From the NCBI RefSeq assembly GCF_014203355.1, contig NZ_JACHIR010000001.1, forward strand, positions 1,178,001 to 1,242,000: DNA of 64,000 nt, written 5' to 3'. Below the pieces are notes generated by a model. It was not told the DNA's origin. It ran no database searches and saw only the letters and a program-made list of their open reading frames with translations. Source of the DNA: Kutzneria kofuensis. Lineage in GTDB: Bacteria; Actinomycetota; Actinomycetes; Mycobacteriales; Pseudonocardiaceae. Of the stretch, positions 40,736-42,899 are shown in pieces. Each line of letters begins with the position of its first letter. Positions within the stretch are counted from its first letter, which is position 1. The translations under genes were made by a program, and so were the position numbers.

Positions 40736-41019
40736 CAGCCATGGCGCCGCGTCTGCTCTACCTGATCTTCTTCAGGCTTGTGGGCCTGATGGTGTTGCTC
40801 AGCCGCTCGTCGAAGTCCAAGGACATCGATGCGCCTGCCGCCCACGGGGCCGCGGCTACACCGGCTGGTCACCCCGGGCACGATCCTTCGCTGGCACCGG
40901 CGCCTGGAAGCCGCGAAGTGGACCTAATGACTCGTGAACGACCGCCGGTGACGCCTCTGAGTTACCCAGGGCGGTAGACCTGCGTCCAGGCCGGCGCACT
41001 GGTTGGTCGTTCTGGATGG

Positions 41020-41395
41020 TCGAGTGCGAGCAGGACGCCTTAAGTGGACCATGGCAGCAGCCTTCTTGGTGTAGACCGGCGCCTCTCGCCTCGACATCCT
41101 CCTCACTCGTTCCGTTGACGCCTGGCGATACCTCGGGCCACGAGCCCTCCAGCTAAGACCGCGCCGACAACGGAACCGGAGGTGGTGGTGGCCAGCACGG
41201 TCGCCACCGCCTCGTTGATCAAGATGGTCGTCGTGATTCGAGCCCGTCCGCACGGAGGACACCTCGTTGGCCGGGAGCCGCATGAGCTCTTCGTCGAGAC
41301 CGGTGCCCGCGCGGATCGCTGGGATCGTGAACGGCTCAATCGGAGGTCAGGCCATAGAGCCTCGTCATTAGGGCGCCGCGCGTTCTCACCAGGGT
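41020..41395 (+). ncRNA. Candidate bridge RNA of the IS110 element
   Basis: Target loop: stem 41026-41039 (GCGAG, AGG, CGCC with two 1-nt bulges) pairs with 41078-41089. It encloses AAGTGGACC (41042-41050), identical to the left target flank 40916-40924, and GTAG (41071-41074), complementary to the right target CTAC (42707-42710). Donor loop: ATCGGAGGTC (41339-41348) is identical to the element's right end (42698-42707), and GTCATTAG (41364-41371) is the reverse complement of its left end CTAATGAC (40924-40931). Flanking pairs CTGG/CCAG and GAACG/CGTTC can close it. Both left guides end in C and both right guides in AG of the CT core. The ends of the RNA are not determined. Confidence 0.8.
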
Positions 41396-41438
41396 CTCGT
41401 TGACCAGCACAAACAGCCAGTTCGAGGAGAAACACAGA

Positions 41439-42686
41439 GTGAAGGTGTTCTGCGGGATCGACTGGGCCGAGGACCACCACGACGTCGCCCTGATCGACGC
41501 CGACGGCGGTCTGGTGGCCAAGCGTCGCATCGGCGACTCCGCCATGGGGTTCGCCGAGCTGATGACGATGCTCGCCGACGCCGGCGACATCGCCGAGGCC
41601 CCGATCCCGGTCGCGATTGAAACCCCGCGCGGCCTGCTGGTTTCGGCCCTGCGCCAGACCGGCCGCCGCGTCTACGCCATCAACCCGATGGCCGTCGCCC
41701 GCTATCGCGAGCGCCACACCGTCGCCCGCAAGAAGTCCGACCACGTCGACGCCATGACGCTGGCCAACATCCTGCGCACCGACGCTCACGCCCACCGGCC
41801 GCTGCCCGCTGACAGCGACCTCGCCCGCGCCGTCGCAGTGCTCTCCCGTGCCACCCAAGATGCCACCTGGCGTCGCACCCGCGCCACCCAGGAACTGCGG
41901 GCAGTGCTGCGCGAGTACTACCCAGGGTTCCTGGCCGCCTTCGCCAAGGGCACCGTCACCAACCTGGCCAGCCCAGAGGCCCGCGCCGTCCTGGCTCTCG
42001 CGCCAACCCCAGCGGCCGCAGCAAAGGTGACGAAGACACAGTTGGCCGCCGCACTACGCAGGGCCGGCCGCCAGCGCGGCATCGAGGATCTGGCCCTCCA
42101 GTTATGCCAAGCCCTGCGCGCCGAGCAGCTGCGACAGCCACCTGCCGTCGAGGACGCGTTCGGCAGTCAGGCCCTCGCTCTGCTCGGCACCCTGAACGCC
42201 GAGTGCGCCGCCGTCGATCAACTCAGCCAGACCACCGCGGAACTGTTCCAACAACACCCCGACTACGCCGTGATCACCAGCTTCCCTGGCCTGGCTGACC
42301 TATCTGGAGCCCGGGTGCTCGGCGAGATCGGCGATGACCGCAGCCGGTTCGCCGACGCCCGCGCGCTCAAGGCATACGCCGGCTCCGCACCGGTCACGAG
42401 GGCATCCGGACGCAGCATCTCGATCACCCGCCGCACCGTGAAGAACGACCGGCTCAACGCCGCCGGGTTCCTCTGGGCCTTCGCTGCGATGGCGAAGACC
42501 GGGGCGCCCCAAGAGCACTACCGGCGTCGCCGAGAACGCGGTGACCGACACGCTGCCGCCTTGCGGCACCTGTTCAACCGCTTCCTCGGCCAGCTCCACC
42601 ATTGCCTACAGACTGGAGAGCACTACGACTCGATCAAGGCGTTCGGGCCGATCGACGACACACCCGCCCAGGCCGCCGCAGCTTGA
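41439..42686 (+). CDS. IS110-family recombinase (DEDD RuvC-like plus Transposase_20)
   Basis: The protein is 415 residues. The GTG at 41439 follows GAGGAG at 9 nt and gives the usual N-terminus MKVFCGIDWAEDHHDVALID with the first DEDD Asp. KKSDHVDAMTLANILRTDAH holds the later acidic residues. The C-terminal domain ITSFPGLADLSGARVLGEIG and AYAGSAPVTRASGRS carries the catalytic Ser candidate. It recombines DNA under guidance of the bridge RNA. The frame is intact, so the element may be active. Confidence 0.93.
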   Translation: MKVFCGIDWAEDHHDVALIDADGGLVAKRRIGDSAMGFAELMTMLADAGDIAEAPIPVAIETPRGLLVSALRQTGRRVYAINPMAVARYRERHTVARKKSDHVDAMTLANILRTDAHAHRPLPADSDLARAVAVLSRATQDATWRRTRATQELRAVLREYYPGFLAAFAKGTVTNLASPEARAVLALAPTPAAAAKVTKTQLAAALRRAGRQRGIEDLALQLCQALRAEQLRQPPAVEDAFGSQALALLGTLNAECAAVDQLSQTTAELFQQHPDYAVITSFPGLADLSGARVLGEIGDDRSRFADARALKAYAGSAPVTRASGRSISITRRTVKNDRLNAAGFLWAFAAMAKTGAPQEHYRRRRERGDRHAAALRHLFNRFLGQLHHCLQTGEHYDSIKAFGPIDDTPAQAAAA

Positions 42687-42899
42687 CACTTAGCGAGATC
42701 GGAGGTCTACCCACACCGGCGCGGGCGTCCGCCCGTCGACGACGCGATCGCAGGGCTGATCGAACGGATAGCCACGGAGAACCACGGCTGGGGCTACAAG
42801 ATCGCTCCGTTGTGGACTGTTGAGCGGTTTCTCGGCATCCGCAACGGAAGGCCGTTACGGGCCTGGGCCCGGTAGCGTTGTACGAGGTGTCATCAAGGT

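Follow-up and report, generated by a model that had tools for sequence, protein, structure and literature searches.

The left end of the IS110 element described here very probably acts as a multi-target bridge RNA, in which tandem target loops share one donor loop. Read directly from the DNA, the support consists of the predicted loops and guides, the donor match, covariation of guides with targets, and two loops of one element that fit two different sites. A large part of the IS110 group, of which IS117 is the classic member, would use exchangeable tandem target loops that share a donor loop. On the same reading, one recombinase would home to several unrelated addresses, several of which are transposase genes of other elements. 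We judge it likely that these two statements hold together.

The element was found in a window (the whole stretch of DNA that was analysed) of 64 kb from Kutzneria kofuensis. It is 1785 bp long, counting both CT cores (40924-40925 and 42707-42708); a CT core is also what the preliminary description of this DNA had proposed. The genome contains three copies with identical interiors and different flanks. Common to the flanks of all three is AAGTGGAC^CT^A[CT]CC[AG]CACCGG, which lies in homologous genes reading ..KW^TYPHR..; the longest open flank, to the right of the second copy, encodes an integrase core (Pfam rve_3). The features used below are as follows, with scores from the covariance model R1.

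40900..40923, + strand, left target flank, inside a gene reading ..AAKW^TYPHR.. (by eye)
40924..42708, + strand, IS110 element with both CT cores
40926..41438, + strand, left end 5' of the gene, proposed multi-loop bridge RNA
40943..41003, + strand, target-type loop 1 (R1 23.8 bits; fold z -3.6)
41027..41088, + strand, target loop 2, whose guides fit the occupied insertion site (R1 31.9 bits; guide match 13.1)
41042..41050, + strand, left target guide AAGTGGACC, equal to left flank plus core C in all three copies
41067..41074, + strand, right target guide TGGTGTAG, within which GTAG pairs with the target
41110..41169, + strand, target-type loop 3, guides about GGCGATACC / CAGCTAAG (R1 20.1 bits)
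41251..41312, + strand, target-type loop 4, proximal (the ancestral position), guides about TCGTTGGCC / TCGTCGAG (R1 29.4 bits)
41323..41385, + strand, donor loop, which holds ATCGGAGGTC and GTCATTAG (R1 12.7 bits)
41339..41348, + strand, left donor guide ATCGGAGGTC, identical to the right end at 42698-42707
41364..41371, + strand, right donor guide GTCATTAG, reverse complement of the left end CTAATGAC at 40924-40931
41439..42686, + strand, IS110 recombinase with a GTG start (PF01548 2e-34, PF02371 7e-13, NF033542 8e-51)
42683..42688, + strand, TTGACA, 17 nt before a TCTAAT that is formed only at the right-left joint in the circle

The recombinase belongs to the Pfam families DEDD_Tnp_IS110 and Transposase_20 and to the NCBIfam family 'IS110 family RNA-guided transposase'. 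This assignment, like the promoter-like joint, also fits the bridge-RNA reading. The same genome carries eight copies (L004-L011) of a second, distant IS110 element (29-31% identical), with nearly equal scores.

The features of an IS110-group bridge-RNA element are largely present. Both PF01548 and PF02371, a long left end 5' of the gene, and the CT core were found, together with a fitting target loop (with a short right guide), a fitting donor loop, and guides that change with the targets. The four guide segments proposed earlier, AAGTGGACC, GTAG, ATCGGAGGTC, and GTCATTAG, each match or pair with their own DNA partner exactly. The left flank reads ...GAAGTGGAC plus core C, matching AAGTGGACC, and GTAG at 41071-41074 pairs with CTAC of the right flank. 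What differs is the arrangement. The preliminary description had proposed a two-loop bridge RNA as in IS621, and its logic holds while its layout does not. There are four target-type loops and a donor loop in place of a single target loop adjoining the donor loop, and the target is matched by a loop other than the canonical, proximal one. The multi-loop arrangement is a different layout from the single loop, not a different mechanism.

A covariance search had been suggested for this region. The Rfam search returned no RNA family above the gathering score in the left end, and it was the purpose-built model R1 that found the four target-type loops and the donor loop. (A match to Rfam Ms_AS-4 below threshold, 36.6 bits against a gathering score of 50, lies on the minus strand at 42280-42362, inside the recombinase gene.) R1 was built from 41 loops selected for fitting their own flanks; window loop 2 belonged to this training set, and window loops 1, 3, and 4 and the IS117 loops were left out of it. 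Loops that fit their flanks share a common frame: ..GACGCCT, the left guide, a hairpin GGGCC..GAGCCCT, a right guide ending in AG, and ACCGGCGC... In the 41 aligned loops, all eight consensus pairs show at least one two-sided compensatory change. The window, 48 + 59 + 22 loci, and L248 (IS117) were scanned with R1, and loop counts refer to these. Across the 64-kb window the four target-type matches scored 20-32 bits and the donor loop 12.7; the next best match reached 11.8 bits. The stem closing target loop 2 is present as described earlier, and its length is not the 12 bp given then but greater, with five interrupted runs and 22 pairs in the minimum-energy fold (z = -4.0). Loops 3 and 4 and the donor loop, when cut out, fold no better than shuffles.

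Guide matches were scored with 1 for a match, 0.5 for a wobble, and -0.3 for a mismatch; the score and the cut-offs were chosen by us, and the null targets, taken from other elements, are partly related to one another. Against these, 1 of 96 other targets is as good for window loop 2 as its own (that of L104, 14.2 versus 13.1, with the left guide shifted). At the same insertion site, 47 of 96 other targets fit equally well for loop 1 and 93 of 96 for loop 3; loop 4 misfits, with 74 of 96 as good. A control over the whole left end gave 2 of 36 other targets with equal scores. The right target guide pairs over only 4 bp, the fourth of which is a G-U pair in the second copy; many relatives reach 6-8. 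Taken alone, the target match in the window is only moderately strong, and the case rests on the family-wide result. Loop 2 (41027-41088) is the predicted working guide of the element and would have directed all three copies to their present site. That at least one of loops 1, 3, and 4 is active as a candidate alternative guide is quite possible, if somewhat doubtful; candidate further sites for copies of the element read GGCGATAC^CTTAGCTG and TCGTTGGC^CTCGACGA.

Relatives were collected as 80 loci from genome contigs, with more from 390 family genomes and 394 class genomes, and further ones from regions of multi-copy genomes, plasmids, and one genome. A search of 396 genomes with the L023 protein gave no new multi-copy genome. 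In blastn, similarity of the window to most close relatives begins at about 41200-41230 and continues to the right end; by this comparison, conservation within the left end covers the 3' part and not the 5' part. Ends were called for 168 of the 174 relatives at ≥40% identity, after the rule for element ends had been widened to admit left ends CTACTTA, and the other six were excluded. For most relatives both ends can be predicted from the donor guides: as the donor loop spells them, left ends usually begin with CTAAT and right ends finish in GGAGGTCT or a GGATGTCT-like sequence. Since the ends are set by the donor loop, the flanks test the target guides independently, and the flanks fit.

Guides change together with flanks among the relatives. 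The finding named beforehand as a refutation, relatives that keep AAGTGGACC at other targets, did not materialize; their guides differ and fit their own flanks. L014, for example, has guides GGGTGTCCC/CCTGATAG and the target GGGTGTCC^CTATCAGC, and in another relative the guides CTCAAGCGC/CGATGTAG fit the target CTCAAGCG^CTACATCA. None of 97-98 other targets was as good for L014, nor for L019 (CCGTCCCTT/TCTATCAG), L048 (TGGCCCTCC/TCTCTGAG), or L122 (TGCCCGATT/TTTGGAAG). Two of 111 targets, with truncated flanks, were removed before the family summary. In a single-loop subgroup (L066, L067, L069, L082, L137, and L141), the best match to the left flank (GATTTCACC-like) lies well 5' of the sole R1 loop, as if the left guide sat outside it. 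Downstream of the L019 element there is a second run of loop-model matches (L019:4359-4586), which may belong to the left end of a further copy at the edge of the contig.

The layout follows the relationships of the recombinases. Below 50% identity, R1 detects a single target loop per relative, immediately 5' of the donor loop and at a distance of 158-197 nt from the gene; this is the IS621 layout. Above 50%, 57 of 78 distinct left ends still show a loop in this proximal slot, and additional loops are placed 286-589 nt ahead of the gene. Among distinct left ends with at least one R1 match, the window and IS117 excluded, those at ≥51% identity have one distal loop in 51 cases, two in 17, three in 5, four in 1, and none in 4; below 51%, 27 of 28 have no distal loop, the exception being L120 at 50.995%. 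In the protein tree (a quick method with a midpoint root), one branch with an SH-aLRT of 100 parts 27 rows, none with distal loops, from 75 rows, 73 of them with distal loops. The guides of the proximal loops of L035, L054, L070, and L113 resemble distal-loop guides, as expected if extra loops arise by duplication.

At ≥51% identity it is mostly the distal loops that fit the targets. This set has 81 distinct pairs of left end and target; 14 with untrusted ends were excluded and 67 kept. The best-fitting loop is distal in 65 of the 67 and proximal in two. For the 65 distal cases, at most one of about 100 other targets is as good in 47, two to four in 10, and five or more in 8; both proximal cases fall in the last class. 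The proximal loop rarely fits the flanks at all (5 of 51 at the level of at most one). Sixteen of the well-fitting elements have more than one distal loop; 10 of these use the first, 4 the second, 1 the last of three, and 1 the last of four. Below 51% identity, 5 of the set of 28 have untrusted ends; in the remaining 23, the single loop fits at the level of at most one in 10 and of two to four in 7, five fit worse, and one is distal (L120). The proximal loop was also considered as a self-targeting guide. This was dropped: in the first 45 of 81 elements, which gave 30 proximal and 64 distal loops, the best scores of proximal loops inside the element were no higher than those of distal loops.

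One pair of elements gives the only direct case of two well-fitted targets for identical left ends. L023 and L024 of Trebonia kvetii, both 1848 bp long, have the same 565-nt left end, and only one base, within the gene, distinguishes them. The target of L023 is TGGTACCC^CTTGTCCG, inside a DDE_Tnp_4 transposase gene, and the loop that fits it is -551 (15.7; none of 98 other targets as good). For L024 the target is GACATCAC^CTTCGACG, inside a Mutator-type transposase gene, and the fitting loop is -348 (16.5; none of 96 as good). Swapped between the two sites, these loops score no more than background (8.2 and 7.7). At the L024 site a further loop, -486, reaches 11.4, above all 96 controls and far under 16.5. 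Another candidate second-target case, L129/L022, was rejected; the left flank is common to both. Four copies in the genome G133, whose left ends are nearly identical and have a single distal loop, lie at sites that share little beyond TC^CTTTC. Loops thus tolerate mismatches, and diversity of sites alone is no proof of several loops. In several cases the target is a transposase gene that belongs to another insertion sequence (DDE_Tnp_4 for L023, the Mutator family for L024, rve_3 for the window copies), and the L101 target reads, by eye, like an IS21-type gene.

IS117 has published integration sites; a search of the literature on them found PMC2194683 alone. In A. pretiosum, an IS117 vector went to site A in 9 of 12 cases and to B, C, and D once each (PMC2194683). 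Sites A, C, and D gave one consensus and B another, and two groups were distinguished in 2007, with AG or TAG at the crossover (PMC2194683). We located IS117 (L248) in an 8.6-Mb genome with the primers from that paper, three of them exact and the fourth at 14/20. Amplicons A-D were read from the genome G057, which contains all four published primer pairs exactly. The IS117 recombinase is 59.5% identical to that of the window, and R1 finds in its left end loops at 38.4, 37.5, 33.8, and 31.6 bits, three distal and one proximal, and a donor loop at 20.8.

In this comparison the guides were fixed and the insertion points were placed inside the amplicons by us. Loop 3 (GTTTCCCC/CTGTCAAG) fits amplicon A at CGTTTCCC^CTTGAGCC (1 of 300 shuffles as good), C at GTATCCCC^CTTGACCG (0 of 300), and D at AGTTTCCC^CTTGACGC (0 of 300). 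Loop 2 (TCCGACC/CCCGATAG) fits amplicon B at CTCCGACC^CTATTGGG (0 of 300) and also the native site CCCCGACC^CTATCGGG. Of the remaining loops, loop 1 comes closest, in amplicon C, where 19 of 300 shuffles are as good. When 191 other loops were tried on the IS117 sites, only IS117-like sisters with the same guides were equal, plus L197 on the native site; in a looser scan, at any place in the amplicon, 5, 1, 1, and 4 of the 191 were equal in A, B, C, and D. With the insertion points placed in this way, the experimenters' split of A, C, and D from B would follow from two IS117 loops. CTT sites share only CT with the CTA joint of IS117 and CTA sites share three bases, which, we infer, fits the AG and TAG groups.

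Some loops that are idle in their own element fit the target of a different one. L100 -311 and L016 -296 fit the target of L015, L036 -417 fits that of L198, L198 -562 that of L199, and L152 -403 that of L215; both L200 -517 and IS117 loop 1 fit that of L048. The full list has 14 rows, among them near-variants of one target (L046/L108, L040, L030/L033/L051). L015 has borderline ends, and its target was admitted by hand with an end score at the cut-off; the list also includes rows for L016, whose own target is without firm assignment, and L201, whose left flank is likewise so.

The evidence has to be weighed against simpler readings. The window could contain an ordinary single-target bridge RNA, the other loops being functionless fossils of earlier guides that were replaced by a new loop. 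Several observations in the window speak for this. Only loop 2 fits the site; loop 1 has a weak inner hairpin with two broken model pairs and no counterpart in L014 (0 of 61 identical columns), and looks partly decayed. Loop 3 is identical to that of L014 in 35 of 61 columns, versus 99 of 210 for spacers, and its predicted site has one match (at ≤2 mismatches) in its own genome versus six for a backward control, so not above it. By eye, L039 and L060 seem to carry eroded versions of loop 3. Conservation of idle loops was compared in seven pairs chosen by us. Some are better kept than spacers (59/61 versus 142/218 in L215/L248, 56/61 versus 151/224 in L201/L215, and 52/61 versus 172/218 in L020/L032), and idle loop 2 of L036/L198 is not (31/61 versus 199/293). 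What the fossil explanation handles poorly is that L023/L024 and IS117 each fit two loops, and we consider it unlikely.

That the extra loops are structural or regulatory (in recombinase binding or the timing of transcription) and merely resemble target loops is, in our judgment, distinctly unlikely: in most elements the distal loops match the flanks, and they differ from target to target. This explanation could still hold for the proximal loop, which is conserved but only very rarely matches the flanks. Chance matches in GC-rich sequence deserve mention; the guides are short, the window right guide has its four pairs, and the target of L104 fits the window loop better than its own. Against this stand the controls with targets of other elements and with shuffled amplicons, and the donor guides that match both ends in most relatives. 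We regard chance as extremely improbable, and for the family as a whole it is already refuted.

Under the preferred reading, that of a multi-target bridge RNA, one transcript would start from a promoter present only in the excised circle, with TTGACA in the right end and TCTAAT across the joint. The joined ends of the window element read TTGACA-N17-TCTAAT, and among relatives whose right ends could be used, 66 of 72 and 23 of 24 have TTGAC at a fixed spacing of 18-19 nt, counted to the core. A promoter across the joint of IS110 circles has been reported (PMC11208160). The transcript from the joint would cover all tandem target-binding loops and then the one donor-binding loop. Each target loop, with its own pair of left and right guides, would bind a recombinase dimer and pick a different genomic address, and the single donor loop would hold the joined ends of the element. 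In the synaptic complex of IS621, one RNA molecule supplies the target loop and another the donor loop, and in vitro it is enough to provide the two as separate pieces (PMC11208158). Separation of a distal loop from the donor loop is therefore no obstacle. In one part of the family, the extra loops would have arisen on the 5' side of the ancestral one, and they would since have been gained, lost, and re-guided.

If this is true, the bridge RNA is naturally modular, with loops that are added, swapped, and kept in reserve. The secondary sites and the two classes of IS117 sites, an old puzzle, would become a readable code, and the site choice of many elements of Streptomyces and Pseudonocardiaceae would be predictable from sequence. 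It would also be a natural guide array for RNA-guided recombination and a blueprint for multiplexed bridge recombination.

In IS621 (Durrant 2024; Hiraizumi 2024), as proposed here, the RNA lies in the left end 5' of the recombinase, the core is CT, the target and donor loops each have a left and a right guide, and a promoter is formed at the circle joint (PMC11208160; PMC11208158). The RNA of IS621 is about 177 nt long with one target loop; the window left end is about 510 nt long with four target-type loops. IS117, the minicircle of Streptomyces coelicolor, is of the IS110 family and, like the window element, has an array, with three distal loops, a proximal loop, and a donor loop; its two classes of integration sites were published with no link to an RNA in the text of PMC2194683 available to us. 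The seekRNA of IS1111/IS110 elements is likewise an RNA from a long non-coding region that selects the target, and, unlike here, several target loops are not mentioned in the accessible part of PMC11187229, which notes the unexplained lack of a consensus for IS621 sites. Tandem or several target loops in IS110 bridge RNAs were not described among the matches listed in the literature search, preprints aside, nor did a search for these terms within PMC11208160 find tandem target loops. In these papers, as far as their text was available, a bridge RNA has one target loop and one donor loop.

The recombinase does not qualify as the Tas effector of a TIGR-Tas array: it scores 26 bits against NF052498, far below the cut-off of 100, and passes the cut-offs of the IS110 models. 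TIGR-Tas arrays serve DNA targeting, not recombination. Their likeness to the present loops is the tandem array itself, there composed of guide units read by a Nop-domain protein (PMC12045711). If our reading is true, the IS110 side would offer an array-like form to compare with the TIGR guide arrays.
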